NCBI RefSeq assembly: GCF_001592205.1
Contig: NZ_BCWM01000006.1
Coordinates: 1-64,000, forward strand
DNA length: 64,000 nucleotides
Direction of reading: 5' to 3'
From: Brevundimonas vesicularis NBRC 12165
Lineage (GTDB): Bacteria > Pseudomonadota > Alphaproteobacteria > Caulobacterales > Caulobacteraceae
The notes under the pieces: generated by a model
Seen by the model: only the letters and a program-made list of their open reading frames with translations
The model's database searches: none
Told to the model about the DNA's origin: nothing
Position numbers and translations under genes: made by a program
In this document: piece by piece, positions 42,410 through 64,000 of the stretch
Numbering within the stretch: the first letter of the stretch is position 1
Layout of the letters: each line of letters begins with the position of its first letter

Positions 42410-42425
42410 AGTCTTCTCCTTCGGT

Positions 42426-43871
42426 TCAGAACCAGGCCCGGAGGCCGACCACGATCCGCGTGTCCTCTGAGCCGCGACCGGAGGCCTCCAGATAATCCGC
42501 AGTTCCGCCAAAACTCTTCGACCATTCGATCCCGACATAGGGCGCGAACTCCCTGCGGATCTCGTAGCGGAGACGGGCGCCGAGCTGGACCGAGGTCAGT
42601 CCGGTCCCCATTGCAAGCTCGGGGACATCTGAAGCCGAGAAGGCGACCTCGACGCTAGGCTGCAGGATCCAGCGGTTGGTAATGCGCTGATCATACTCAG
42701 CCTCCGCCCGCGCCGTCAGCTCTCCCTTCGTCGACAGGAAGGCGGCGGCGTCGACCTCGAACCAGTAGGGTGCAAGCCCCTGGATGCCGACCACGAGGTC
42801 CGTTCGGTCGGCGCCCTCGGGCCGGTAGGTCTGGCGCACACCGGCCTGCACGTCAAAGAACGGGCGGATGGCACGGCTGTAGAGCGCCTGAAGCTCAGCT
42901 TCCTCCAGACCGCCGCCGAACTCGCCCTCCCCTTCCGATTTCCACCAGAAACGATTGATGTCGCCACCCGTCCAGCCCTGAGCATCCCAGGAGTAGCTTT
43001 CCTCACCGTCTGAAGAGCCCGCTTCCAGTTGGTCGATGATTACGGCGGTCGTCCTGATATCGCCGTTCTCCACGAGAAGCTGCGCGCGCGACGCCATCAT
43101 CTCGCTCGGATCGAACAGCAGGTCCGCCGCATGGGCGGGCCAACCGAGAGCGGCCACGGGGATAGGGTCTTGCGGCGGCCGGCCGGGATTATTCGCGCTC
43201 GTGGGGACGTCGGGCGGCATCGCCATGGCCCCCATCCCGGCCATGTCGTGGCCGGCGTGAGGATCCGATGACGACTGCGTCGGCATCTGGCCCATATTCA
43301 TGGTGGACATGTCATGACCCGCCGCCGAGGTAGCTGGCGTCGCGGACGTCTGCCCCGCGGTCATACCTGACATGTCATGGCCTGCATGCGGATCGGCGGC
43401 AGGCTGAGCGGGAGCCGGAGTTCCCATGTTCATGGTGGACATGTCGGGGCCCGCCGCCGGAGTAGCCGGCGTCGCGGGCGTCTGCCCTGCGGTCATACCC
43501 GACATGTCATGGCCTGCATGCGGATCGGCGGCGGGCTGAGCGGGAGCCGGAGTTCCCATGTTCATGGTGGACATGTCGTGACCCGCATGCGGGTCGGCGT
43601 CAGGCTGGGTCGGAGCCCCCATGTCCATCGTGGACATGTCGTGGCCGGCCATCGGCGCCACGCGTTGCGGTACGGTTCCAGGCGGACAGACTGGCGCACC
43701 GGGTGCGCCCACCCTGGAGAGGTCTCCATCCGGCGCCCCGCGACGCACGCAACCTGTCGGCAGGGGAACGGCCTGGACCCTGGCCGCCGGGGTGTGACCA
43801 GCATGCGACTGCGCGTAGGCCGGAGCGGCCGCGAGCAACAGGGGTACGAGAGCTACAGCAGTCTTGATCAC
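42426..43871 (-). CDS. copB: CopB: outer-membrane copper-resistance protein
   Basis: 481 aa. GTG start at 43871 overlaps the copA stop as GTGA. Signal peptide VIKTAVALVPLLLAAAPAYA. The N-terminal third carries many HDMS(T/G)M motifs in tandem (DPHAGHDMSTMNMG), then the CopB barrel: DRTDLVVGIQGLAPYWFEVD, LTARAEAEYDQRITNRWILQ and RIVVGLRAWF at the end. CopB is thought to bind or export copper at the outer membrane. The repeats are recorded separately. Confidence 0.92.
   Translation of the reverse strand: MIKTAVALVPLLLAAAPAYAQSHAGHTPAARVQAVPLPTGCVRRGAPDGDLSRVGAPGAPVCPPGTVPQRVAPMAGHDMSTMDMGAPTQPDADPHAGHDMSTMNMGTPAPAQPAADPHAGHDMSGMTAGQTPATPATPAAGPDMSTMNMGTPAPAQPAADPHAGHDMSGMTAGQTSATPATSAAGHDMSTMNMGQMPTQSSSDPHAGHDMAGMGAMAMPPDVPTSANNPGRPPQDPIPVAALGWPAHAADLLFDPSEMMASRAQLLVENGDIRTTAVIIDQLEAGSSDGEESYSWDAQGWTGGDINRFWWKSEGEGEFGGGLEEAELQALYSRAIRPFFDVQAGVRQTYRPEGADRTDLVVGIQGLAPYWFEVDAAAFLSTKGELTARAEAEYDQRITNRWILQPSVEVAFSASDVPELAMGTGLTSVQLGARLRYEIRREFAPYVGIEWSKSFGGTADYLEASGRGSEDTRIVVGLRAWF
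43233..43583 (-). repeat. Tandem 132-bp repeats in copB (44-residue Met/His unit)
   Basis: Two near-identical units (43583-43452 and 43451-43320) and a partial third to 43233. Each codes for a 44-aa unit with HDMSTMNMG and DPHAGHDMSGM motifs. Nucleotide identity between units is very high by eye. Confidence 0.85.
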
Positions 43872-50847: not shown

Positions 50848-51987
50848 ATGACCGCGTCCACGCCGCCGACGACCGTACTGCGCCCGCCCCCGATCGGCCG
50901 GGGCGGTTGGCTGGATGCCCTACGCTTCATCGTCGGTGCGATGATCGTCCTCTACCACTTCCGCAACGTCGCGCCGCTGCCCTTGCCTGATCTTCATCCG
51001 GTTTTTGATCGCGGCTATTTGCTGACGGACTTCTTCATCATCGATTCCGGCTATGTCCTCGCGCGGGTTTACGCCGACAGGCTCGCGCAGCACCGCATCC
51101 CGCTGCCCGCCTTTTACAAGCAGCGCTTCCTGCGAGTCGTGCCCGCGCACATGGCCGTGAGTCTCGGCTTGGCCGCGCTCGTCCTCGCCGCTGCCTTGGC
51201 CGGGCAAGCGCCCAGCCATCCGGAATGGTTCGACTGGTCCTCATGGCCCGCCCAGTTTTTCCTCGTGCAGGCCTACGGCGTTCCGGGGGGCGAAGGCTGG
51301 AACGCTCCGACCTGGACGCTTTCGGCGCTTCTGGGCTGTTATCTCGCCCTGCCTTTCTTGGCGCGCGTGGCCAAAGACCATTCTCCGTGCTTGATCCTCG
51401 CGGCGGGCATCGGCGGTCTGCTGCTGGCGAATCTCACCACCCATGCGCTCTTTGGCCTGCCCGTCTACGAAATGCCGTTGCGTCTGGGTTTCGTTCGGGC
51501 GTTTCCGCTCTTCGTTCTCGGCGTAGCCGTCGCCCTTTTCGCCCGTCAGGTCTACTGCTCTCCGCGGTTGGCCGTGGCGCTGACGGGTCTGGCGCTCATT
51601 GGTCTGATCCTGCTGCAGGCGTGGGGGCGCTATAGCCTGCCCACGCTGGGCCTGCTTACCCTGCTGATCTTCGCCGCCGGGGCCCTGCCCGTCCGGCGGA
51701 AGTCGCGGGTGGTCGAGCATCTGGCGCTGATGGCCTTCTCGATCTTTCTGACGAACGAAGTGGTGAGGATCGCCTGGTTCGGCGTTCTTGACGCCGCCGG
51801 CTGGTCTGGATGGAGTCCGGCGGCTCGTTGGGCCGCCTGGGCCGCCGGATTGGCAGCCGCATTCATCGCCGCAGCGATGTTCCGGTATGGGTTCGACCGG
51901 CCGACACAAGCCTGGGTCAACCGGACCGAAAGCCGTAGAGGCGGCCTTCCGGATCAGAAGAGCGAGCCCCCCGCACCAGCGCTCTGA
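50848..51987 (+). CDS. Acyltransferase 3 family membrane protein, copy 3 (divergent)
   Basis: 379 aa, about ten spans. WLDALRFIVGAMIVLYHFRN carries the motif His in a less conserved form than copies 1 and 2 (FHYQ). TDFFIIDSGYVLARVYADR replaces the FILSGF motif. Distant paralogue, possibly acting on a different acceptor. It ends 15 bp from the convergent copD. Confidence 0.82.
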   Translation: MTASTPPTTVLRPPPIGRGGWLDALRFIVGAMIVLYHFRNVAPLPLPDLHPVFDRGYLLTDFFIIDSGYVLARVYADRLAQHRIPLPAFYKQRFLRVVPAHMAVSLGLAALVLAAALAGQAPSHPEWFDWSSWPAQFFLVQAYGVPGGEGWNAPTWTLSALLGCYLALPFLARVAKDHSPCLILAAGIGGLLLANLTTHALFGLPVYEMPLRLGFVRAFPLFVLGVAVALFARQVYCSPRLAVALTGLALIGLILLQAWGRYSLPTLGLLTLLIFAAGALPVRRKSRVVEHLALMAFSIFLTNEVVRIAWFGVLDAAGWSGWSPAARWAAWAAGLAAAFIAAAMFRYGFDRPTQAWVNRTESRRGGLPDQKSEPPAPAL

Positions 51988-52002: not shown

Positions 52003-52926
52003 TTACATCACCATGGCGGCCGGCGGCGCCTGGGTGCCCATGATCGCCACGGCGAACAGGAGGGCGAGCGCGAGGCCGCTCTCGAGGACCAGGCTCCTGC
52101 GAAGCCGCTGGAGCGCATGTGGGCGCGCCCAGTCGTCATCGAGGCTGGCTCCGAGGTTGGGGGTCAAAACGAACCGGTTCGAAGCCGCCAGCAACAGCAT
52201 CAGGCCAAACACCGCGAGCTTGAACAGAAGGAGCCAGCCGTAGGGCGTCGTCACAAGCCCTGGAAGCCCGTCAATACCGATGAGGAACCAGCTATTGATC
52301 AGGCCGGTCGCCGTGAGCAGCGCGACGGCAAGGGTGCCCAAACCTGAAAACCCCTCAAGCGCGGCGTGGGTCAAGGGCGCTCCGGCGGCATGGCCGTGTC
52401 GGGGGCGGAGCATCAGGGTCAGGGCGGCGAGGCTGCCTAGCCATAGGCCGGCGGCGAGTGCGTGCACGACGTCAGCAACGAGATGCGGCCAGCGCCCGGC
52501 GCCTTCGGTGGCGCCGCCGTGACCGGTCCAGGCGAGGCTCGCAGTCACGACGCCGCCGAGGATCATCAGGCTCGCCCAGGCCGCGCGCGAAGGCTTCAGG
52601 ATCACCACCAGCACAGCGGCCAAGGCGGCTCCGGCCGCACGAACAAGGAAGGCGATGCCGAGGCCGGTGCCAAGTGCGACGTAGGACAGGGATTCGGGTT
52701 TCAAGGCCTCGCTGACCGAGCCGGCCATGACCGCGGTCTGAACGACCAGGGCGGCCAGGGCGGCGACGCTCGTAAGGGCGCCAGCGATCGCGAGTGTCGT
52801 TCGCGGCCATCTTTCGATGGCCGCGTTCGACAGGGGCATCCTGAACGCGAAGAAAAGGGGGACGCCAAACAGGAGGGTAGCGCCGATATACTGCCCCAAC
52901 CTCAGCAGGATGACCGTTGTTTCCAT
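52003..52926 (-). CDS. copD: CopD: copper-resistance membrane protein
   Basis: 307 aa with about eight spans. CopD domain: HLVADVVHALAAGLWLGSLAALTL with conserved His, followed by FSGLGTLAVALLTATGLINSWFL and PYGWLLLFKLAVFGLMLLLA. It probably moves copper into the cytoplasm with CopC. It begins 4 bp after the copC stop. Confidence 0.92.
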   Translation of the reverse strand: METTVILLRLGQYIGATLLFGVPLFFAFRMPLSNAAIERWPRTTLAIAGALTSVAALAALVVQTAVMAGSVSEALKPESLSYVALGTGLGIAFLVRAAGAALAAVLVVILKPSRAAWASLMILGGVVTASLAWTGHGGATEGAGRWPHLVADVVHALAAGLWLGSLAALTLMLRPRHGHAAGAPLTHAALEGFSGLGTLAVALLTATGLINSWFLIGIDGLPGLVTTPYGWLLLFKLAVFGLMLLLAASNRFVLTPNLGASLDDDWARPHALQRLRRSLVLESGLALALLFAVAIMGTQAPPAAMVM

Positions 52927-52930
52927 GGGA

Positions 52931-53293
52931 TCACCGAACGACGAAGTTGGTGGTTCCCGTCATGCGGTGACCGTCGGGCGAGGCGACCCGCCAGTTGACG
53001 GTGTAAGCCCCGGCGGGCAGCGCACGCGCAGGGGCGCCGGACACCGTCTTGCCATCGTCGGAGACTTGCGTCCGCACCGGGATCGTCGCGCCGGCCGCAT
53101 TGACCACGTCGAAGCCCGAGAAGGCCGGCACCATGCGTTCGCTGAAGGTCAGGGTGATGGTGCGCGGAGCGCTCACCGTCGACCCGGCCGCCGGAGTCGC
53201 CGACACGAGACGCGCATGCGCATCGGCCTGACTGGCGAACAGAGAGAGCGCGGCGATGGAAGCCGCGAAGGTTGCAATCTTGAAGCGGGTCAA
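52931..53293 (-). CDS. copC: CopC: periplasmic copper-binding protein
   Basis: 120 aa. TTG start with a clear AAGGAG site 7 bases upstream; no ATG is available. Signal peptide ends at SQADA, giving mature HARLVSATPAAG with His1 as a Cu(II) ligand. The end DGHRMTGTTNFVVR contains the conserved DGH motif. Delivers copper to CopD. Confidence 0.93.
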   Translation of the reverse strand: MTRFKIATFAASIAALSLFASQADAHARLVSATPAAGSTVSAPRTITLTFSERMVPAFSGFDVVNAAGATIPVRTQVSDDGKTVSGAPARALPAGAYTVNWRVASPDGHRMTGTTNFVVR

Positions 53294-53407
53294 CTGTAAC
53301 TCCTTTGGAACTCGACGCCCCTACACCTGATACGCGGACGGCGGACATACCCCTCAACAAGTCGGCGACTTCTATACCGCCCGAACGCCCGCGTCGCTGA
53401 ATCCCAG

Positions 53408-53869
53408 TCAGGTCTCCGCCAGGAGCGCTTTCATTTGAGCGATCTCCTCTCGTTGCGACCTGACGATGTCGTCGCACAGGGAGACGATCCGTGGATCACT
53501 GAGCTTGGCCTGCTCGCACATCAGAACGGCGCCGGAGTGATGCGGGATCATCGATCGAAGGAACTCGTGATCGCCCACGAAAGCCTGTGTCCGCATGCCC
53601 CAGAACGCGAACAGGAAGATTACGACCGCGCCCGCGGCGATGGCGAGATTGACCTTGCCCGAGGGGTACATGCCGCGCATGAAGCCCAACATGAGCAGGC
53701 CCATGGGCGCGACCATCATCAGGGTCATGTAGACGTTGTTAAGGTTGAGATAGAAATGATCGAGCGAGGCGATCATCGTATACATCACCAGAAACATGAT
53801 GACGAAGTCGATGCCGATCTCGATAAAGAAACTCTTGTAGAGGTTCTTTCCTTGCTGATGCTCTTGCAT
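53408..53869 (-). CDS. DUF305 membrane protein
   Basis: 153 aa with three membrane spans and a C-terminal DUF305 domain: FLRSMIPHHSGAVLMCEQAKLSDP, where His-His and Met-Cys are candidate metal ligands. DUF305 proteins often accompany copper genes. Start ATG 53869 with AGGAGG. Confidence 0.87.
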   Translation of the reverse strand: MQEHQQGKNLYKSFFIEIGIDFVIMFLVMYTMIASLDHFYLNLNNVYMTLMMVAPMGLLMLGFMRGMYPSGKVNLAIAAGAVVIFLFAFWGMRTQAFVGDHEFLRSMIPHHSGAVLMCEQAKLSDPRIVSLCDDIVRSQREEIAQMKALLAET

Positions 53870-54307: not shown

Positions 54308-54550
54308 TCAGTCGCTGTCCGGATCGATGATGCCGGCACGTACCGCGACCGCAACCGCTTCGATCCGGGTCCGCACCCTGAGCTTGGCGCAGGTCTTCTC
54401 GAGGTAACTGTCCACGGTCCTGTGCGAGAGGCCGACGATCTGCCCGATATCGACGGAGCTCTTGCCGCGGCTGACCCAGAGCAGGCATTCGGTCTCGCGC
54501 GCGCTCAGGGGCGTCATCGGTCGAGGTTCTGACGGGGATGCACAGTCCAT
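54308..54550 (-). CDS. Small LuxR-type HTH protein (80 aa)
   Basis: 80 aa, almost entirely a LuxR/NarL winged HTH: LSARETECLLWVSRGKSSVD and LSHRTVDSYLEKTCAKLRVR. It has no sensory or receiver domain. Start ATG 54550 with AAGGAG. It is divergent from the FecI gene, so a regulatory role in the lasso-peptide block is possible but not shown. Confidence 0.8.
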   Translation of the reverse strand: MDCASPSEPRPMTPLSARETECLLWVSRGKSSVDIGQIVGLSHRTVDSYLEKTCAKLRVRTRIEAVAVAVRAGIIDPDSD

Positions 54551-54889
54551 GGCTGCTCCTTGACGTGTTTCGCGCACGTTGGGCGGGAATCCCCATTTCA
54601 GGCAACGACAGTGAATTGCGGGCCGCCCGCAATAATCTTGCGGAACGAAGGCGCCAGCTCCCGCGCACCCAGCCGACTTGCGCGCCCGCCGCCTTTGATT
54701 CATGGTTCGCCTGCCGGCGTCCGCGCTGGTGGGGCCTGGAATCCCCTGTGCGACATCTGATCATCGACGACCCCGCGCCGCGCGCGGATGTCGGTTGCCG
54801 ACGGCTCCGGAGGCATGCGCTCGCGCGCGTGCGCCCGGTCGCGCGGCCGCGCCGGGATTCCAGACCTCTCGTGAAGAGGCCGGAGAGGC
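54551..54889. other. Intergenic region, 339 bp, no gene seen
   Basis: No ORF with a lasso-precursor shape (leader, then Gly-led core with an acidic residue at 7-9) was found by eye on either strand. It probably carries the promoters of the small LuxR gene and of fecI. Confidence 0.5.
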
Positions 54890-55381
54890 GTGGTGACAGA
54901 GGCGAAACAGCTCGGCGTGGATGGACGGGACGGCCTGAACCGCCTGTACCGGCAATACGCCCCCTGGCTGAGCCGTCGGCTGCGGTCGCGCATTGGGCCG
55001 GACGACGCCGCTGACGTGGTTCAGGAGACCTACATCCGCGCCGCGCCCTACGCCCTGGCGGACATCCGGCATCCGAAGGCCTTCCTTCTGCGGATCGCCA
55101 TGAACCTTCTGCGGGACGAGCGCCGACGGCAGTCGCGCCAGCCGCAGCAGAACGAGGCCGAAGCGCCTCCGCAAGGCGAGGCCGCGACCCAGTTCGACGA
55201 GCTTCTTCTATCGCAGGTCATCCATTCGATGCCGCCGCTCTACCGGAACGTCTTCGTTCTCAACCGCTTTGGCGGTATGACTTATCCAGAGATCGCCCGG
55301 ACGCTCGAGATCAGTGTGCAGACGGTGCAATGGCGAATGGCCAGGGCGATCGAGTACTGCGCGTCTCGGCTGGACCTTTAG
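54890..55381 (+). CDS. FecI-type ECF sigma factor of the lasso-peptide locus
   Basis: 163 aa. Region 2 (LYRQYAPWLSRRLRSRIGPD with DVVQETYIRAA) and region 4 (MPPLYRNVFVLNRFGGMTYP, LEISVQTVQWRMARAIEYC). GTG start with GGAGAGG. It precedes FecR by 9 bp and is followed by a TonB receptor with an STN domain. In FecIRA systems outer-membrane substrate binding activates such a sigma factor. Confidence 0.93.
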   Translation: MVTEAKQLGVDGRDGLNRLYRQYAPWLSRRLRSRIGPDDAADVVQETYIRAAPYALADIRHPKAFLLRIAMNLLRDERRRQSRQPQQNEAEAPPQGEAATQFDELLLSQVIHSMPPLYRNVFVLNRFGGMTYPEIARTLEISVQTVQWRMARAIEYCASRLDL

Positions 55382-55390
55382 GCAAGACGG

Positions 55391-56368
55391 ATGACGATCG
55401 AGGGTGACGTCGACACGAGACGGAAGGAAGCGGCTGACTGGTTCGCGCGGCTCAACCAGCGCACGGTCACGACTGCGGATGTGAGAGGTTTCAGCGACTG
55501 GCGTCGCGATCCTGAGAACGCGCGCGCCTTCAGCCGTGTCGAGGCGATGTGGGAGGCTGCCGGGACCCTGGCGAAAAATCCCGATATGGCCAACCTGACG
55601 CGGGAGGCTGCAACGGCGGCCAAGCCCGTCCGGAAGCCGAGGCTGGCGACGGGCCGTCTGATCCCGATCGGGGTCGTCGGCGCGCTGACCCTGGCGCTGG
55701 GCGCGGGCGGCGTCCTGTGGATGTCGCAGCAGCCGACGCGCTACGCGACCGCGGTCGGCGAGCAACGCACGATCCAGCTTGAAGACGGATCGCGCATCAT
55801 CCTGGACACCGGCTCCGAGGTCGCGGTGCGGTTTACCGGAGGGCGTCGCTCGGTGACGCTCAACAACGGCCAGGCGATGTTCGACGTCGAAGGCGATCCG
55901 GCTCGACCCTTCATCGTGGCCGCCGGCGACACCCGGGTGACGGCGATCGGCACCCGGTTCGACGTGCGCCGATCGGGGGCGGGCGCCCGCGTCATTCTCG
56001 TCGAGGGTCGGGTCGACGTCAGACGAGAGGCCGCGGCGGACGGCCGCTGGGCCTTGTCGCCCGGTCAGGAGGTCACGACCTCGGCGCCCCGCCCGACGAT
56101 CGCCACGGCCAATGTCCCGGCCTCCACGAGCTGGACCAGCGGGCGGCTGACGTTCGAGAACACGCCCATCGCCGAGGCTGTGGCGGAGGTGAACCGCTAC
56201 AGCCGCGAGCCGATAGAGCTCCGCGACAGCCGGATTTCCTCGGTGCAGGTCAGCGGTGTCTTCAACGCCGGCGACATCGACGGCTTCGTGGCCGCACTGA
56301 GCGACCTTTACGCCCTCCAGGCCACCAGGGCCGAGGATGGCCGCATCGTCCTCAGCGGACCCGCCTGA
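55391..56368 (+). CDS. FecR-type transmembrane anti-sigma regulator
   Basis: 325 aa. N-terminal cytoplasmic helical part (EAADWFARLNQRTVTTADVR, with WR residues typical of FecR), one membrane span (LIPIGVVGALTLALGAGGVL), and the periplasmic FecR domain (TVGEQRTI-like: TAVGEQRTIQLEDGSRI; LNNGQAMFDVEGDPARPFIV). The C-terminus resembles an STN-partner region (ISSVQVSGVFNAGDID). Mediates signal from receptor to sigma factor. Confidence 0.93.
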   Translation: MTIEGDVDTRRKEAADWFARLNQRTVTTADVRGFSDWRRDPENARAFSRVEAMWEAAGTLAKNPDMANLTREAATAAKPVRKPRLATGRLIPIGVVGALTLALGAGGVLWMSQQPTRYATAVGEQRTIQLEDGSRIILDTGSEVAVRFTGGRRSVTLNNGQAMFDVEGDPARPFIVAAGDTRVTAIGTRFDVRRSGAGARVILVEGRVDVRREAAADGRWALSPGQEVTTSAPRPTIATANVPASTSWTSGRLTFENTPIAEAVAEVNRYSREPIELRDSRISSVQVSGVFNAGDIDGFVAALSDLYALQATRAEDGRIVLSGPA

Positions 56369-56460
56369 AAATTTATCCGTACCCGACTTAGAGGAAACCC
56401 CGCGACCCAACGTCTCCTCCCCGTCCCGCACATCCGCGGGTAGAAAAACGGGGGATGGTC

Positions 56461-59415
56461 ATGGGCCAAGGATTCACGTCGACCGCGCTTGCCGCACTGA
56501 TGATGGGCGTCGCCACGCCGGTCATCGCACAGTCGAGCGATGTCGCGCGCCGCTTCGAGATCGCGGCTGGCCCGCTGGATCGCAGCCTTCCTGAGTTCGC
56601 TCGCCAGAGCGGGCTGCAGATTCTCTATCCCAGCGCACTCGTGGCGGGGCGGCAGTCGCCCGCCGTCAACGGCGACCTGACGTCAGAGGCGGCGCTCACG
56701 CTGCTCCTTCGCGATTCCGGACTGACCTATCGCCAGAGCCGCCCGACCGTGTTCGTCCTCGTCGATCCCTCGGCCCGCGCCGAAGCGTCCGGGGTCGAGG
56801 CGGTTGAGCTCGACGAGGTCGTGGTCACCGGCACCTATCTGCGCGGAGCCGACAGCCCGTCCCCCGTGACCGTCATCACTCAGGCCGACGTCGCGCGACA
56901 AGGCCGGGCGACCGTCGCTGAAACATTGGCCGCTATGCCGCAGAATTTCACCGGCTCAGCCTACGAAGGCTCGGCCAATACCGGGGCCGACCGCTCTGGG
57001 CGCAACATCGGATCCGCGACCGGCGTCAATCTCCGTGGCCTCGGGGCCGACGCGACTCTGGTGCTGGTCAACGGGCGACGGGTCGCCGGAACGGGCAGCG
57101 CCGGGGACTTCGCGGACATCTCCAACATCCCGTCCAGCGCCATTTCGCGGGCCGATGTCCTGCTCGACGGCGCCTCGGCCCTCTATGGCGCGGACGCGGT
57201 CGGCGGCGTGGTCAACATCATCCTCAGATCCCGCTTCGAAGGCGCAGAGACCCGGGCCCGCGTCGGCGGAACGAGCGACGGCGGCGCCGAGGAGTTCCTC
57301 TTCTCCCATGCTGGAGGTCTAAGCTGGGGAAGCGGCAGCATCGTCGCCGCCTACGAGTATCACGATCGCAGCGAGCTCCAGGGGGCAGACCGCGACGCTA
57401 CCGCAGACGCCGACCTGCGCCGGTTTGGAGGAACCGATCGCCGGCTCCTCACGGCTTCACCCGGAAACATCGTCCGCCTCGACGCCGCCACCGCGACCTA
57501 CATTCCGCTCTTCGCGATTCCTTCCGGCCAGAATGGCATTGGTCTCGCGCCCGGCGACTTCCTGGCCGGGCGGATCAACAGGACGAATCAACTCGAAGGT
57601 CAGTGGTTCCTGCCGGATCAGAAGCGTCAGAGCGTCTTTCTGGCGGCGAGGCAGAACCTCCCGGCCGGGTTCAGCCTGGACGGCGATGTCCGATACACCG
57701 AGCGAGACTTCTTCCTGAAGACCAGCGCGGACGCGGGGACCTTCACCGTCACCGCCGCCAATCCCTACTTCGTGTCGCCGAACGGCTCGACCTCCCATGA
57801 CATCGCCTACTCGTGGGTCAACGATCTGGGACCGGGCGTGTCCGAAGGGAGCACCGAGAGCGTCGGCGGTGCGATCGGTGTATCGGGCGGACTCCTCGGC
57901 TGGAATGTCTCCGCCTACGCCAGCGGCGCACAGGAGATCACCGACCGCCGTCTGTCCAATCGTGTGCAGACAACCTTCCTGCAGGAAGCACTGGGCGCAA
58001 GAGCGGATCTACCGACCACGACTTTCAGGACAGCGACGGACGGATTCTTCAACCCGTTTGGCGGCCCGGCCGCGAACTCCGCGACGATCCTGGCGCACAT
58101 CGGCTCGGGCTACACCGATACCGACTACGTCAGCACGGTGTCGTCCTTCAACATCAAGACGGATGGGACGGTCTTCGAGTTGCCCGGTGGTCCGCTGCAG
58201 GCTGCGTTCGGCCTGGACTTCCGCGCCGAGCGGTTCGAGTCGGGTGGCGAGAGTTTTCTGTCCGGAACCGCTCCGCGCGTGACCGCCCCGATCTCATTCG
58301 AACGAGACGTTTCCTCCGCTTTCGCCGAAGTCCGCGTTCCGATTTTCGGCCCGACCAACGCCCGCCCCGGCCTGGAACGGCTGGAACTGTCGCTGGCGGG
58401 GAGAGTGGAAGACCACGAGGGTGTGGGGAGGACGAGCAATCCCAAGCTCGGCGTGCTCTACGGCCCAACGCCCGATCTGGTGTTGCGAGCTTCCTGGGGG
58501 ACGTCTTTTCGCGCGCCATCCCTCAGGGAGTTGCAGAGCACCTATCAGATCGGCCCGTCGTTCCTGAACCGCGGCGGCGGCAACGTCCTGACCCTCATCC
58601 AGTACGGTGGAAACCCCGACCTCAGACCGGAAACCGCGGAGTCGATCACAGCGGGCTTCGTCTGGACGCCGGCCGCCTACGACGGTCTCCGCCTCGAAGG
58701 CAGCTGGTTCCGCACGCAGTTCAACGACCGCATCGGCAATCCGGTTCTTCAGAACCTCGTCAACGCGCTGAACGACCCGGCGCTGGCCCCCTTCGTTCGC
58801 TATGTCACCCCGACCACGTCTGCGGATGACCGAGCCCTGGTCCAGTCGCTTCTGGACCACCCCGGCAACTTCAATCCGACGGTCTTCCCGGCGACCTCCT
58901 ACGGCGTCATCGTGGACAATCGTTTCGTCAATGCGGCGAGCGTCGAAGTCGAGGGACTGGACTTGTCCGCGCGCTACCAGTTCGATCTCGCCGCCGGTCA
59001 GGCGATGATCGACACGACCATCACCCATCTGCTGACCAATAATCGGCAGATCACCGCGGCCTCCCCCACCGAGCACCTGCTCGGGGATCCGAACTTCCCG
59101 GCCAGATGGCGGGGGCGTGCCGGAACGCAGTGGATCCGCGGTCCGATCACTCTGGGACTGGCCGCGAATTATGTCAGCGGCGGCACCGACCCGTTGACCA
59201 ATCGCGGGATCGACGACTGGACCACCTTCGACGGTCAGGTGCGATACGATTTCGCGGCGGGTTGGGGGGAAGATCTTTCGCTCAGCCTCAATGTGCTGAA
59301 CCTCTCCAATGCGGCGCCGCCCTTCTACGACTCCCCCAACGGTCTCGGTTTCGACGGCGCCAATACCAATGCGCTCGGACGCCAGGTCTCCCTCCAGCTC
59401 GTCAAGCGCTGGTGA
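56461..59415 (+). CDS. TonB-dependent receptor with STN domain (putative lasso-peptide receptor)
   Basis: 984 aa. Start ATG 56461 with GGGGGA at 6-bp spacing; an ATG at 56455 overlaps that site. Signal peptide ends at VIAQS. STN domain (FEIAAGPLDRSLPEFARQSG, LLLRDSGLTYRQS), TonB box near VELDEVVVTG, plug with GLGADATLVLVNGRRVAGTG, and barrel ending LGRQVSLQLVKRW. STN plus FecI/FecR makes it a signalling receptor. The isopeptidase starts 6 bp later, so its cargo is probably the local lasso peptide. Confidence 0.92.
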   Translation: MGQGFTSTALAALMMGVATPVIAQSSDVARRFEIAAGPLDRSLPEFARQSGLQILYPSALVAGRQSPAVNGDLTSEAALTLLLRDSGLTYRQSRPTVFVLVDPSARAEASGVEAVELDEVVVTGTYLRGADSPSPVTVITQADVARQGRATVAETLAAMPQNFTGSAYEGSANTGADRSGRNIGSATGVNLRGLGADATLVLVNGRRVAGTGSAGDFADISNIPSSAISRADVLLDGASALYGADAVGGVVNIILRSRFEGAETRARVGGTSDGGAEEFLFSHAGGLSWGSGSIVAAYEYHDRSELQGADRDATADADLRRFGGTDRRLLTASPGNIVRLDAATATYIPLFAIPSGQNGIGLAPGDFLAGRINRTNQLEGQWFLPDQKRQSVFLAARQNLPAGFSLDGDVRYTERDFFLKTSADAGTFTVTAANPYFVSPNGSTSHDIAYSWVNDLGPGVSEGSTESVGGAIGVSGGLLGWNVSAYASGAQEITDRRLSNRVQTTFLQEALGARADLPTTTFRTATDGFFNPFGGPAANSATILAHIGSGYTDTDYVSTVSSFNIKTDGTVFELPGGPLQAAFGLDFRAERFESGGESFLSGTAPRVTAPISFERDVSSAFAEVRVPIFGPTNARPGLERLELSLAGRVEDHEGVGRTSNPKLGVLYGPTPDLVLRASWGTSFRAPSLRELQSTYQIGPSFLNRGGGNVLTLIQYGGNPDLRPETAESITAGFVWTPAAYDGLRLEGSWFRTQFNDRIGNPVLQNLVNALNDPALAPFVRYVTPTTSADDRALVQSLLDHPGNFNPTVFPATSYGVIVDNRFVNAASVEVEGLDLSARYQFDLAAGQAMIDTTITHLLTNNRQITAASPTEHLLGDPNFPARWRGRAGTQWIRGPITLGLAANYVSGGTDPLTNRGIDDWTTFDGQVRYDFAAGWGEDLSLSLNVLNLSNAAPPFYDSPNGLGFDGANTNALGRQVSLQLVKRW

Positions 59416-59421
59416 TCCGAC

Positions 59422-61812
59422 ATGCGCATCACTGTGTTGTGCGCGCTTGGCGCGCTCGTGCTCGCATGCCCGTCGCGCGCTGTTACGGAGCCCCTCACCC
59501 TCGACACGCTGCTCGGCCTGGAGACTTTCGGACGGATCGAGATCGATCCCTCGGGCTCTGTCGCCGTCTTCGAGGAGCGGCGCGCGCGTGGAAATCTTCC
59601 GCAGTACGATCTGCAGCCCGAAGGCTTTCTCCGGTACGCAAATCTTTACCGGCTTGACCTCGACAGACCCTCCGGGATCAAGCCGCTGCTGCCGATGGAA
59701 GAGGACGCGGGCTACACCATGGGGCCCTTCTCGCCCGACGGCTCTCAGCTCGTCGTGTATCGTCTCCAGGGGCACGTGTTCCGGCTCGGCATCGTCGATC
59801 TGGGAACCGGAGTCGTCGCCTGGAGCGACCTCTCTCCCGAAAGCGGCGCCTGGGGGCGATCGGTGCAGTGGATCTCGGACAGCGAGCTGCTGGTGCTCGG
59901 TATGCCTGACGGCGATCTGCCGCCGCGCCTCGCGATCCAGATCGTCACCCAGACCCGCCTCCCCGATCTGTGGGCCCGGGCCGCACGGGGTCAGTCGGCC
60001 TTCGTGTCCGCCGGCCAGGGGGCGCCCGAGGAAATCCGCGAGTCCCGCATCCTCTGGCGCGTGAATGCGGATACGGGCGCCGCCACGGTCCTGACCGACG
60101 GCGACTTCCTTGACTTCGAAGCCTCCCCGGACGGGAGCCATGTCGCCGTGCTCAAGGACGGCCCTCTGGCCGCTCCCCCGGGCCTGGACGCCTCGACCGA
60201 GTTTCGCCGGGCGCGGTCGTTGCGTCTGCTGAACACGCGGACGGGTTCGTGGGTAGACCCGCCCGAGGCCGTGGACATCTCCACCAGCCTTCTCGGCTGG
60301 TCGGCGGATTCCTCGGCGTTGCTGGTGAGCGTCGTCGGCGCCGATCCTGCCCGTCTCCTCTCGATCTCGCCGACTGGCCAGGTTCAGGATCGAACTCCGA
60401 CCGGCGTGTCGCCGGACAAAGAGCCCGACGTCTTCGGAAGCCCGACAGCGCACGCGGCCTGGCTTGGCGGCGAAGTCGTCGTTCGCGGCGCCCGCGACGG
60501 GCAAATGGCATGGTGGTCCGGACGCGGGACCGGGGTCGTCGCTGTGAACAGCCTGAGCAACACAGCGCGCGTGGTCGCCCGTGGACGACAGTCCGCGCTT
60601 TTCGAGGATCGAGGGCGCGTCCTTCGCCTCAGCTCCGACCTGTCGTCCGAGGATCTCGGCCAGACCGGCAGGATTTCACGCTCTCTCGGCATCTTCGGGT
60701 ACAGACGCCAGACCGACCCGATGGGCGAGAGTGCGACGGAGGTGGTGGGAGACGGCGGCCGGTTGTGCCGGGTCTTCGCCGATGTCCAGGCCCAACCGCC
60801 GGCATGCGTGGCTGCGAGACCCGGCGCCAGCGTCAGTTGGGAGCGCAGGGTCAGCGTCGGGATCGGAAGTGAAGGTCGTCAGCTCAACCAGCTCGAGGTC
60901 CGCAGTGACGCGGGTTCCGAGGTCGTAAGGCGTCTCAATCCGGAGCTCGACACGGTCTTTGTACCGGAGGCCCGCCTGATCACCGGTCCAGACGGCGCCC
61001 GGGGCTGGCTGTTCCTGCCCGAGGCGACCTCCGGTCAACCGCCACCGGTGATCGTCATTCCCTACCCCGGAACGACCTATTCCACCGCTCCGGCAAAGAT
61101 GCGCCCGGAGATGGTGCAGATGACCCAGAACGGGGGGCTGCTTGTCGCGGCGGGCTATGCGGTCATCTACCCCGATCTACCGACGAACGCCGAGCCGTCG
61201 GTTGGTATCGCGGACAGGATTCTGGCCGTTGTCGACGCCGCCGCCGCCGACGGTTCGATCGATGCCGATCGGATCGGGCTCTGGGGTCATAGTTTCGGAG
61301 GCTGGTCGGTCATGATGAGCGCCGCCCAATCGCCCCGTTTCAGCGCAGTCGTAGCCCTCAACGGGCCCTACAATCTGCAACTGTCTCTTGCCGACATGGC
61401 CCAGAGCCAGCGCATCCTCGGCGGAAACACCATCGACGCCGTAAGTGGCGCGCGATGGCTCGAAACCGGGCAAGCAGGGATGCTCAGACCGTATTGGATG
61501 GATCCCGAGCGATATCGGCGAGGCAGCCCCTTCGAGCAAGCCGACCGCATCAGGACCCCGATCCTTCTTTTCCACGGCGAGTTGGACTTCCTCGGGTTTC
61601 ACACCGAGCAGATGTACGCCGCACTCGTTCGTCTCCACCGACCGGTCGCGTTGACCTATCTGTTCGGCGAGGACCACAGCGTTCACAACCCGGGTAACGC
61701 CCGGGTCTACTACGATCAGCTGACGGCCTGGTTCGACCAGTATCTCAGGCCCGACGAGAGGCGATCCGGGCCTTCCACCGCCGAAGCCAGGCTTCGGTCA
61801 GCGCCAGGGTGA
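59422..61812 (+). CDS. Lasso peptide isopeptidase (S9 prolyl-oligopeptidase-like, AtxE type)
   Basis: 796 aa. Signal peptide MRITVLCALGALVLACPSRA. An N-terminal propeller-like region precedes the alpha/beta hydrolase. Nucleophile Ser624 is in LWGHSFGGWSV, Asp722 in FHGELDFLGFH, His752 in GEDHSVHN. In the asticcacaulis-type lasso clusters such S9 enzymes cut the isopeptide ring bond, linearising the peptide. Coupled 6 bp behind the TonB receptor. The 3' end overlaps the convergent C gene by 68 bp. Confidence 0.9.
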   Translation: MRITVLCALGALVLACPSRAVTEPLTLDTLLGLETFGRIEIDPSGSVAVFEERRARGNLPQYDLQPEGFLRYANLYRLDLDRPSGIKPLLPMEEDAGYTMGPFSPDGSQLVVYRLQGHVFRLGIVDLGTGVVAWSDLSPESGAWGRSVQWISDSELLVLGMPDGDLPPRLAIQIVTQTRLPDLWARAARGQSAFVSAGQGAPEEIRESRILWRVNADTGAATVLTDGDFLDFEASPDGSHVAVLKDGPLAAPPGLDASTEFRRARSLRLLNTRTGSWVDPPEAVDISTSLLGWSADSSALLVSVVGADPARLLSISPTGQVQDRTPTGVSPDKEPDVFGSPTAHAAWLGGEVVVRGARDGQMAWWSGRGTGVVAVNSLSNTARVVARGRQSALFEDRGRVLRLSSDLSSEDLGQTGRISRSLGIFGYRRQTDPMGESATEVVGDGGRLCRVFADVQAQPPACVAARPGASVSWERRVSVGIGSEGRQLNQLEVRSDAGSEVVRRLNPELDTVFVPEARLITGPDGARGWLFLPEATSGQPPPVIVIPYPGTTYSTAPAKMRPEMVQMTQNGGLLVAAGYAVIYPDLPTNAEPSVGIADRILAVVDAAAADGSIDADRIGLWGHSFGGWSVMMSAAQSPRFSAVVALNGPYNLQLSLADMAQSQRILGGNTIDAVSGARWLETGQAGMLRPYWMDPERYRRGSPFEQADRIRTPILLFHGELDFLGFHTEQMYAALVRLHRPVALTYLFGEDHSVHNPGNARVYYDQLTAWFDQYLRPDERRSGPSTAEARLRSAPG

Positions 61813-63460
61813 GCAATCGGGAGAAGCCACCCCGCCAGACCAGGGCCTCGCGGGTCATTTCGTCCGCGAGCCCCCGAGGCAGGAGCTCCGCTGCGGCCAG
61901 TTCCCCTTCCAGGAGATAGCCTCGAAGGAAATCGAGCTTGCCGGCGACGGCTTCACCGTAGAACGCGCCCAGCTCTCCCTTGGAACGTCGATGGAAGATG
62001 GCGGCAGGGATGGCGTCGGCATAGGCTGCCCGCGCCGCAGACCGGTCGCGTCCTCCCCATGTCAAATCGACGGAGGACCAGGCGAGCCCCGCTTCCACAA
62101 CAGGTTGGCTGAGAAGCGGGTTCACGCAGGGCCCATTTCGGCTCCGAACCGCGTGCCCCTGGAATGCCTGGGAATTCACCAGTCCAAGGATCTGCATCAC
62201 CTTCCCTGGAGGAACGCCCTTGAGCGCTTCGAGCCAGGGATGCCGCCGCTCACGCAACGCAAGGGAATGAGCGCGTCGCGTCTGCAACCAGGTTCTGGGC
62301 CAGAGCGACTGACCGGTCCATCGCGCAGCATCATGGAGAACCTGTGCCCGCGCGCGCATGCGCCGTTCCAGCACTTCGTCGAAAGCGATCAGGAACGTCG
62401 GCATCTGGAAGAACACCACGTCACCGCCCTGGCCGGTCAAAGAGCCCCAGGCGCCCGAACTTTCCACACGACCCGCGATGTCGTCATTGTAGTCAGTATC
62501 GATATCGTTGGTTGCCGGCCGAAAGGCGTCTGTTGATCGAGCCAGACGCGCTGGAGACAGGGTCAGGCCGCTGCGCCTCACTGCCGTCAGGTCGTATCCG
62601 TGCCGTTCCACGACGGGCCGCGCGAACGCCCGCTCGTCGCCTTCCGGATCGCCAACGAAGTGATTGACCCATTGGGCGACGCGGGCACGCTGTTGATCCG
62701 TGAGCGCGCCGGCCACGATCGCCGAATCCAGACCTCCGCTGACCTCGGCGATCCACACCCGCTCTCCGGCCAGCGCCTGGACCGTCCGATCGACCACTTC
62801 ACGAAGGTCGGGTCGCGCCTTCTCCCTGGCGTTCCGATAGATGTCTGCGGGGCTCCAGATTTGCCGGGAAGCGACGCCGCCTCGGCCAGCGACCGTGAGA
62901 CCGCCTGCCGCGACCGGTGTGAGTCCGGACAACGCCAGTTCGTGGCGATAGCCGCCACCTCTTGCGAGCAGCCCCCGCATCGATTGCCAATCGATGGCGA
63001 GCTCGTCGGGCAGCAGGCCGTCCAGGGCGGGCGGCGCGGTCGGCGCCACCACGCTCACGCCGCCCTTGCGCCACACTACGGCCTCGACGGCTCCAGAGGG
63101 GTCTCGCAGAATCGCCGCGCCACCGGGGGTCCGCCGGATCAGGACGTAGCGTCCCCAGTGGGTGGAAACGACTGTCGCTGCTTGCTTCGCGTCGAGCACA
63201 CGGCAGGCCAGAACGCCGCGTTCGGCCGCCGACAACGGACAACCAGTCTGGTCGAACATCTCTCCGACCACGGCGCCGTGGCCGTCGAGAGCGGCTACGA
63301 TCTCAACCCGGGACGTCGCGGGCGCGTAGACGGCGATGAAGGGGTGAAAGACGCGGCGACTCCAGCCGGCCCCGGCGAGGCGTCGAGCCACCTTCTGGCT
63401 CAGCGCCTCCAGCGCCGCCGCATCGTCTCCCACCAGAACGACGTAGGCGTCCGCGCTCAT
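61745..63460 (-). CDS. Lasso peptide C protein: asparagine-synthetase-like macrolactam synthetase
   Basis: 571 aa. Start ATG 63460, 2 bp after the B stop. An N-terminal glutaminase-like region (GRYVLIRRTPGGAAILRDPSG) lacks an N-terminal catalytic Cys. The ATP-pyrophosphatase motif is VSGGLDSAIVAG, with downstream SLTGQGGDVVFF. The acidic substrate carboxylate is adenylated and joined to the N-terminal amine of the core, making the ring. The gene order B-C on the minus strand is convergent with the isopeptidase. Confidence 0.92.
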   Translation of the reverse strand: MSADAYVVLVGDDAAALEALSQKVARRLAGAGWSRRVFHPFIAVYAPATSRVEIVAALDGHGAVVGEMFDQTGCPLSAAERGVLACRVLDAKQAATVVSTHWGRYVLIRRTPGGAAILRDPSGAVEAVVWRKGGVSVVAPTAPPALDGLLPDELAIDWQSMRGLLARGGGYRHELALSGLTPVAAGGLTVAGRGGVASRQIWSPADIYRNAREKARPDLREVVDRTVQALAGERVWIAEVSGGLDSAIVAGALTDQQRARVAQWVNHFVGDPEGDERAFARPVVERHGYDLTAVRRSGLTLSPARLARSTDAFRPATNDIDTDYNDDIAGRVESSGAWGSLTGQGGDVVFFQMPTFLIAFDEVLERRMRARAQVLHDAARWTGQSLWPRTWLQTRRAHSLALRERRHPWLEALKGVPPGKVMQILGLVNSQAFQGHAVRSRNGPCVNPLLSQPVVEAGLAWSSVDLTWGGRDRSAARAAYADAIPAAIFHRRSKGELGAFYGEAVAGKLDFLRGYLLEGELAAAELLPRGLADEMTREALVWRGGFSRLLTLALTEAWLRRWKARIASRRA

Positions 63461-63462
63461 GG

Positions 63463-64000
63463 TCACATCACCATGATCGGCCGGTAGATGGTCAGGGTGT
63501 CCGGCGCCTGGCTGACGCAATGGTCCCCCACCTGGAGCCAGCAGTGCGCGAGGAATGGCCACACCCGCACGCCGAAGACCCAGTCGGCGTCGAGGTCGGC
63601 GGCGTTCAGGAACCGGAGCAGGAGCTCGGCCTGAAACAGACAGGCGCCGACGACAGGCGCATAAGGAAGCATCCGGTGAAACACGCCGACCCTCGCCGCG
63701 ATTGCGGCCAGGTCGTCACGACGTCCGCCACGTCCGGAGACATTCTGCGACAGCGCCTGCAGCGTTGGCTTGCGCCGAGCCGTATCGGCCCAGAGCAGCG
63801 CGAACGTCGCCATGTCTGCGGTGGAAGGCGTTCCGACCTCGACATCCGGGAGACGATGCAGCGGGATCGGCGGCGGTGGGCGGCGCGGACCCGTTGGCGC
63901 ATCCGCGTGCAGCAGCTCGTTCGCCGCCAGATCGAGCATGAGATCCATTGGGGCCAGCAACGATCCGCCGTCCACCTGGACCTGACTGCAATCCGGAACC
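63463..64000 (-). CDS. Lasso peptide B protein (leader peptidase), partial at the right edge
   Basis: The reading frame stays open to the window edge, so the true start is outside (a GTG at 63975 exists but need not be the start). The protease part has Cys112 (PVVGACLFQAELLLRFL, counted from that GTG) and His144 (WPFLAHCWLQVGD) with the 32-residue spacing of McjB. The usual Asp position after WLQ is occupied by VSQ. The C-terminus reads YRPIMVM, as in other B proteins. It removes the leader of the precursor. Confidence 0.9.
   Translation of the reverse strand, partial: VPDCSQVQVDGGSLLAPMDLMLDLAANELLHADAPTGPRRPPPPIPLHRLPDVEVGTPSTADMATFALLWADTARRKPTLQALSQNVSGRGGRRDDLAAIAARVGVFHRMLPYAPVVGACLFQAELLLRFLNAADLDADWVFGVRVWPFLAHCWLQVGDHCVSQAPDTLTIYRPIMVM

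Follow-up and report, generated by a model that had tools for sequence, protein, structure and literature searches.

Isopeptidase-type lasso peptides are encoded by clusters of near-constant architecture, with a GntR regulator, a TonB receptor and a sigma/anti-sigma pair; the accessible text of PMC9266682 describes their role as not known and, with one exception, attributes no antimicrobial activity to them. A siderophore-like role is suggested, in the part of PMC11006600 openly available, for a Sphingomonas lasso cluster with an isopeptidase and a TonB receptor, and the caulosegnins are made by one enzyme set according to the excerpt available of PMC13352647. Natural-product clusters are known from cyanobacterial conjugative plasmids (abstracted text of PMC8600333); among papers found in an open-access library, no title or abstract opening reports a conjugation link for isopeptidase-type lasso clusters. 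Here we analyse a lasso locus at the end of the window, the 64,000-nucleotide stretch that forms positions 1-64000 of contig C6 of Brevundimonas vesicularis NBRC 12165 (genome of 3,358,429 bases in 42 contigs). The best supported explanation is a lasso module of a known kind that is located in a conjugative element, is controlled together with the transfer genes and carries interchangeable specificity cassettes.

The original prediction, made from the window, described a locus for lasso biosynthesis, sigma-factor signalling and degradation, and the gene set, two precursors and conserved synteny all agree with it. Since the window ends at 64000, its author could see neither the precursors nor the type IV secretion system (T4SS) setting. 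That the arrangement is known from Caulobacteraceae and sphingomonads matches the architecture given in the accessible text of PMC9266682; astexin, named as the example, shares the type of arrangement, but the nearest characterised cluster found is that of the caulosegnins. What is new is the position of the module inside a conjugative element beside a T4SS, the exchange of cassettes, and a palindrome at both module ends.

Results

The lasso module

The first three genes of the module, all on the + strand, encode an extracytoplasmic function (ECF) sigma factor resembling FecI (54890-55381; PF04542, PF08281), a FecR-like anti-sigma factor or signal transducer (55391-56368; PF04773, PF16220) and a TonB-dependent receptor with an N-terminal STN domain, plug and barrel (56455-59415; PF07660, PF07715, PF00593). 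By their Pfam matches they complete a Fec-type cell-surface signalling set. They are followed on the same strand by an S9-family protein with a beta-propeller and an alpha/beta hydrolase (59422-61812; PF00326), the presumed lasso hydrolase. This gene converges with that of lasso C, an asparagine-synthetase-like cyclase (61745-63460, - strand; PF00733), the two 3' ends overlapping by 68 bases, and the 221-residue lasso B (contig 63463-64128, - strand; PF13471) runs past the window end at 64000. All of these genes lie where the predicted FecI/FecR/STN-receptor/hydrolase set was said to converge on B and C. The Cys/His character proposed for B holds, as C163 and H195 are kept in 28/28 aligned B proteins and NF033537 is matched at 54.6 bits (cut-off 33). 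For C, whose ATP-dependent cyclisation the original prediction made a condition, the SGGLDS signature is sustained at motif level, with SGGxDS in 32/32 aligned proteins; its NF033561 score of 56.5 bits lies below that model's cut-off of 300.

Beyond 64000, where a precursor near the B gene had been anticipated, a pattern search of open reading frames (ORFs) yielded two precursor genes on the - strand: A2 (contig 64214-64333), upstream of B, and A1 (contig 64432-64560), upstream of A2. Their products divide into leader and core as MTTKSISRLVRLGAARKLTR and AGVLGEFIELNPAERYDITVGA for A1 and as MKATTRVLRLGQARCLTR and AAMDGELVELNSHLKWDMPVG for A2, each gene having a Shine-Dalgarno-like stretch, and we predict an Ala1-Glu9 ring for both cores. 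Both carry Thr at position -2 and a ring acid within core positions 7-9. Because these residues, together with a Gly, belonged to the search pattern, independent support comes from the conserved rest of the leader and from the recovery of the caulosegnins. The same pattern returned 136 precursor-like ORFs from 83 of the 104 loci with B (leaders cut at the last Met; a handful look like chance), with R-L-[IV]-R-L-G-x-A-[KR]-x-L-T-x in common ahead of the core. YxxP, a leader motif of lasso precursors, occurs in none of the 136 as cut here. At locus L136 of genome G185 the cores are GAFVGQPEAVNPLGREIQG, GTLTPGLPEDFLPGHYMPG and GALVGLLLEDITVARYDPM, which a table in the available part of PMC12427821 prints as caulosegnins I-III of Caulobacter segnis; with the single enzyme set reported for these peptides in PMC13352647, this locus anchors the type of B and C.

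A conjugative element around the module

The genes that follow the module on C6 are those of a T4SS, in the order VirB1, VirB3, VirB4, VirB6, VirB8, VirB9/CagX, VirB10/TrbI, VirB11, VirD4 and LPD7. On the + strand, virB1 (SLT/VirB1) starts at contig 66343, virB3 at 67455, virB4 at 67783 and virD4 at 75833, the last followed directly by the LPD7-domain protein (77680-78321; PF18821). A MobA/VirD2-like relaxase (88874-89830), ArdC and a ParB-like gene also lie behind the T4SS, so that the element possesses secretion system, coupling protein and relaxase; the relaxase was present in 20/20 genomes searched.

Among 299 genomes of the host's family, VirB4 at 77% identity or more occurs at 28 places, 26 of them within 12 kb of a gene of the hydrolase family and 27 within 60 kb; the one place left over is a partial match, from a genome that is 83% complete. 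The full order GerE1-FecI-FecR-receptor-hydrolase-C-B-GntR-HTH-GerE2-VirB1-VirB3-VirB4 (HTH, helix-turn-helix) is found in 17 of the 20 loci from named genomes with a close relative (L064-L083). Type strains with the module beside virB include B. aurantiaca DSM 4731, B. lenta DSM 23960 and B. variabilis DSM 4737. The other three are L077, truncated before FecI with the rest kept, L080, truncated after the hydrolase, and L078 of Brevundimonas albigilva, in which hydrolase, C, B and receptor are 94-100% like the copy on contig C4 of the source genome and GntR, HTH gene and T4SS are missing alongside; L078 is a module cut out of its element. Four relatives with single-contig genomes (G122, G151, G288 and G252) have an integrase at a distance of 43-65 kb from virB4, and these integrases and one beside the C4 copy are 79-93% identical in pairs.

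Three observations belong beside this description. L080 stands on a plasmid-labelled contig of Pseudanabaena biceps, with a module of Brevundimonas type (FecI 84%), and is likely a contamination of that cyanobacterial assembly. L031, from the single-contig genome G159, is a broken copy with hydrolase and C and without receptor, FecR, B or T4SS. Copper-resistance-type genes at 52003-53869 of the window, which we take by eye to be CopC-like, CopD-like and DUF305-like, adjoin the module and are probably cargo of the element.

Exchange of specificity cassettes

Elements with near-identical T4SS genes bear differing precursor, receptor-barrel and enzyme cassettes between conserved flanks. The clearest comparison is between loci L033 and L040, which share VirB4 at 99%, VirB3 at 99%, VirB1 at 95%, the HTH protein at 97-98%, FecI at 98% and FecR at 94% identity. 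Their hydrolases are 54%, C proteins 66% and B proteins 50% identical, and the cores differ. Two proteins are themselves divided: the receptor keeps 95% in STN and 86% in the plug region against 70% in the barrel, and GntR 91% in its HTH part against 65% in its effector part. DNA identity falls from 90-96% to 51-74% from receptor barrel to GntR and returns to 94-99%, and the domain-wise identities place one boundary of the variable cassette between STN/plug and barrel. A more distant case is L038 against L054, with VirB1 at 100% and VirB4 at 97%, yet hydrolase at 28% and FecI at 68%.

Trees of C and VirB4 disagree accordingly. In the C tree the peptide types, which had been defined by core sequence and hydrolase identity ahead of any VirB4 tree, are clades at 100/100 support (seven, two and four loci), whereas the VirB4 tree rejects all three (approximately unbiased test, p-AU 8e-13, 0.007 and 4e-6). 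An identical pair of cores recurs in eight loci (L006, L034-L040). The variable parts are those expected to contact the peptide (barrel, hydrolase, B, C and the C-terminal part of GntR), and the constant ones those expected to relay a signal (STN, FecR, FecI and the DNA-binding part of GntR).

A palindrome at both module ends

The palindrome CCGCAA-N5-TTGCGG has one copy at each end of the module: CCGCAATAATCTTGCGG at 54627-54643, in the GerE1-FecI region, and a twin at contig 65291-65307, in the gap between GntR and the HTH gene. Between 54 and 112 kb of C6 the perfect CGCAA-N5-TTGCG occurs just at these two places, 54627 and 65291; one-mismatch sites over all spacings number 13 against 9-19 in shuffled sequences and so are not enriched. 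At up to one mismatch, 19 element loci hold 18 sites upstream of FecI (17 loci) and 4 in the other 355 kb, besides 21 in the GntR-HTH gap (19 loci), the latter count being circular because the motif was discovered in that region. Upstream of FecI the site is missed in L006, truncated there (the C4 contig has a one-mismatch site at 197359), and in L053, which has none. Eight further loci from fresh genomes carry the site upstream of FecI in 7/8 and in the GntR-HTH gap in 7/8.

Outside the element set, a site lies upstream of GntR in 32/78 loci, where the density is 11.6 per 10 kb compared with 0.5 in other places; 15/83 loci have one upstream of FecI, 8 of the 15 having VirB4; L052-L054 and L057 are counted in both sets. 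From this placement, a single regulator, either GntR or the HTH protein, probably works on both module ends within the element.

The regulator GntR is encoded at contig 64631-65212 (- strand; PF00392). Its predicted structure is of low confidence (predicted local distance difference test, pLDDT, 71.6), with FadR/VanR-like matches at E about 3e-4, and a comparison with defence-system models gave just one marginal match, to Csa3 (E 7e-4). The HTH gene follows, divergent from GntR on the + strand; its product has no Pfam match and we take it to be XRE-like, the counterpart on a Polymorphobacter plasmid being named 'helix-turn-helix transcriptional regulator' by NCBI. Between it and virB1 lies GerE2, a LuxR/GerE protein gene on the + strand. 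Just outside the other end of the module, GerE1, a LuxR/GerE-type DNA-binding protein (54308-54703, - strand; PF00196, 49.1 bits), is a conserved gene of the element, matched by tblastn at the same place in the relatives' loci; its real start is probably further in than that of the longest ORF. For a FecI promoter, conserved stretches stand before the receptor gene and give no defensible motif. Within the module we saw no gene for a dedicated ATP-binding cassette (ABC) exporter.

A second family of candidate lasso hydrolases

The GHSFGG protein was originally called an isopeptidase. The motif is there, with an intact triad (S624-D722-H752), and the N-terminal stretch resembles a signal peptide; the isopeptidase activity is attributed by analogy, as the protein scores 54.6 bits against a cut-off of 400 with the Atxe2 model NF033523, over residues 599-776, the hydrolase part only. 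On this score membership of Atxe2 was rejected, and the source genome contains no NF033523 match at E<=1e-80. The AlphaFold2 model (pLDDT 86) has the S9 fold of beta-propeller and alpha/beta hydrolase. In Foldseek its nearest solved chains are S9 carboxypeptidases (8wt1), and the lasso isopeptidase SpI-IsoP (5jrl), of the same fold, ranks 18 at 14% identity; VIA-align listed no lasso isopeptidase (SpI-IsoP) among 50 entries, which carries no weight. A relative adjoining lasso B and C is named 'prolyl oligopeptidase family serine peptidase' by NCBI. In a quick tree the window's family and Atxe2 form separate clades, and their forced union is just rejected (p-AU 0.0497). The family thus likely arose separately from Atxe2, and an independent recruitment is suggested.

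Searching with the hydrolase gave 115 matches at E<=1e-60 in 83 of the 299 genomes, and all 115 neighbourhoods were fetched (17 are stretches shorter than 19 kb, where contigs end). Lasso C is present in 112/115, always on the opposite strand and within 3 kb in 110; B is present in 106, the receptor in 113, FecR in 107, FecI in 104, GntR in 105 and the HTH gene in 92. Given the numbers for C, B and receptor, the association is not due to chance, and from the 112 neighbourhoods with C the family is lasso-associated. Across 112 aligned members the triad has Ser in 112/112, His in 112/112, and Asp (103) or Glu (9) as the acid. We therefore presume, by analogy, a lasso isopeptidase of a second, non-Atxe2 family. 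A sample of 384 further genomes of the class yielded no match to the hydrolase at E<=1e-50; two plasmid records of Polymorphobacter (Sphingomonadales) encode it at 34% identity, so it is not strictly limited to one bacterial family.

Conjugation genes near other loci

The link to conjugation genes extends beyond the window's type of element. With PF02534 and VirB4 as markers, 41 of the 115 hydrolase loci have a conjugation gene within 10 kb, and the number rises to 62 at 20 kb and to 80 at 45 kb. For this count at least 150 TraG/VirD4 (PF02534) places were listed and the 67 genomes with a still-unlinked locus were re-searched; it partly omits conjugation places on contigs without a lasso locus. 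The distances fall into groups, on the precursor/B side at 8-10 kb (virB4, the window's element type) and at 4-8 kb, and on the FecI side at 10-14 kb. At the caulosegnin locus TraG, an S26 peptidase and DUF2840 lie upstream of FecI, and on the Polymorphobacter plasmid an unrelated F-type tra operon (TraL, E, K, B, DsbC) adjoins the module on the FecI side.

The Atxe2-type clusters have conjugation genes within 10 kb in 0/37, within 20 kb in 8/37 and within 45 kb in 20/37, and the link is weaker close up, 0/37 against 41/115 within 10 kb. Because PF02534 stood within 20 kb at 8/37, these clusters were dropped as a negative control. No VirB4 of the type found in the window occurs within 60 kb of any of the 37, 5/37 being in genomes that own one. 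Among individual Atxe2 loci, L204 has TraG (PF02534) and L205 a ParB-like gene nearby.

Other lasso loci in the genome

Contig C4 carries a paralogous module of the same gene order, adjoining a paralogous T4SS, relaxase, ArdC and ParB-like gene, with an integrase near by and cores AVSRGEFDELNPVLKYTIPPSE and AILMGPFTELNPARHWTMPPE; it shares with the window the pieces 42415-43217 and 50881-51922. A third lasso B (C26 24883-25215) belongs to a different cluster (L005, C26:15000-34000), with an ABC transporter, an asparagine-synthetase-like protein, and a precursor-like ORF of core GASRGSQLDATFPTGTPFGELTFS, surrounded by glycosyltransferase-like and polysaccharide-type genes. The hydrolase matches include none of the window's family in this cluster.

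Discussion

The previous results lead to a mechanism in which a caulosegnin-type module has been built into a conjugative element. Mechanistically, B would trim both precursors and C would cyclise them into Ala1-Glu9 lasso peptides, which would leave the cell by a route not assigned to any module gene. The STN receptor would bind or import the peptide and signal through FecR to FecI, which would drive the receptor/hydrolase operon; the secreted S9 hydrolase would then open the lasso and end the signal. As the original prediction had it, a cell may plausibly take its own peptide back up and hydrolyse it. GntR and the divergent HTH gene, the latter leading the T4SS operon, have one palindromic control region in common, which is repeated at the other end of the module, so that peptide status and transfer genes are likely read together. 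In this way the peptide would report to a cell if an element of the same peptide type is present in that cell or in its neighbours. Peptide production by B and C, the isopeptidase role, binding at the palindrome and the effect on transfer we infer from sequence; the anatomical part of the explanation, module and element setting, is far surer than the full statement about a signal. That the element uses its lasso peptide as a self-sensed signal tied to transfer, we propose tentatively, at slightly under even chances. The wider statement, that the isopeptidase-type lasso peptides of Caulobacteraceae serve conjugative elements as pheromones, with cassettes of precursor, receptor barrel, hydrolase and GntR effector setting the peptide type and the S9 enzyme as a second isopeptidase family, appears rather unlikely to hold as a whole. 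Under it, TonB receptor, FecR, FecI and the GntR effector domain would sense the peptide, and transfer regulators would be the readout through the shared operator.

Several results weigh against a signal tied to transfer. No integrase was found on C6, and a comparison of the integrase side with the far side in the four relatives gave no convincing att direct repeats. A random position would be expected to have a conjugation gene near it at 3.3% for 20 kb and 7.3% for 45 kb (about 3.5 conjugation genes per 4.3 Mb), a null that ignores the clustering of mobile genes. The conjugation link is not special to the window's hydrolase family, as Atxe2 clusters are linked too, and could be mere co-residence on mobile islands; the palindrome upstream of FecI is mostly confined to the window's element lineage. 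Exclusion between like elements was also considered: 34 co-resident pairs are at most 62% identical, but 60% is reached by just 2.6% of cross-genome pairs, so the constant difference between co-resident copies does not show exclusion. Finally, at 35/115 loci no conjugation gene was found within 45 kb (20 of these have none on the contig), and the module can therefore exist apart.

These 35 loci also favour the nearest rival, in which the module is passenger cargo: an ordinary caulosegnin-type locus that serves the host in a siderophore-like or scavenging role and rides on the element as the copper genes do, with no tie to transfer. Copper-type genes do flank the module, and siderophore-like roles have been proposed in the accessible texts of PMC9266682 and PMC11006600. 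Such a passenger would not be expected at one fixed site, between GerE1 and HTH/virB1 in 17/20 loci, in place of varying cargo sites; nor does it explain a palindrome common to the transfer-side regulators, or an exchange that changes the specificity parts and leaves the FecI/FecR and T4SS flanks intact. We give this explanation real but minority credence.

The diversified cassettes with a cognate hydrolase would equally fit a toxin and immunity pair, that is, a narrow-spectrum lasso toxin against close relatives, from which periplasmic hydrolysis protects the host and which thereby keeps the element in the population. Astexin-1 is reported to have a narrow activity, but the other known isopeptidase-type lasso peptides are without antimicrobial activity in the accessible text of PMC9266682, and a signalling receptor with a sigma/anti-sigma pair in the hydrolase operon would be superfluous for plain immunity; we regard a weapon as improbable. 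Lastly, with no exporter gene seen inside the module and several kinds of T4SS genes alongside, the adjacent T4SS might export the lasso peptide in place of the missing ABC transporter. The element's own relaxase and coupling protein imply that DNA transfer accounts for the system, many loci are without a nearby T4SS, and we know of no precedent, which makes such export very improbable.

The repeated conjugation link, the cassette exchange and the operator at both ends make the role of the peptide directly testable. If the signal hypothesis is true, this would be a first lasso pheromone as far as searches of an open-access library show. The analysis would also add a second family of candidate lasso hydrolases, missed by current annotation.

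In comparison with known systems, the caulosegnin locus is the closest to that of the window. Both have the order sigma factor, FecR, receptor, S9 hydrolase, C, B, precursors, GntR and HTH gene, with the same short-leader type and the same S9 family; identities are 38% for C, 36% for B, 30% for the hydrolase and 42% for the receptor. They differ in that the caulosegnin locus has conjugation genes of a different type, which flank its module on the opposite side, and in that the window's cores start with Ala and have 21-22 residues while those of the caulosegnins start with Gly. The Atxe2 clusters (astexin, benenodin, sphingopyxin) likewise have lasso B and C, GntR, a TonB receptor, a sigma/anti-sigma pair and an S9 hydrolase, going by the accessible text of PMC9266682. 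Their hydrolases differ from that of the window in family, each family forming its own clade. A likeness of another sort is with pCF10 and PhrI of ICEBs1, the peptide pheromone systems of conjugative elements, and with the exchangeable signal and receptor cassettes of agr: there too a small peptide comes with its own sensor, and the specificities of signal and sensor co-vary between conserved flanks. Those systems use linear or thiolactone peptides and belong to Gram-positives, whereas the system of the window, known here from its genes, would use a threaded lasso sensed by an outer-membrane TonB receptor and an ECF sigma factor.

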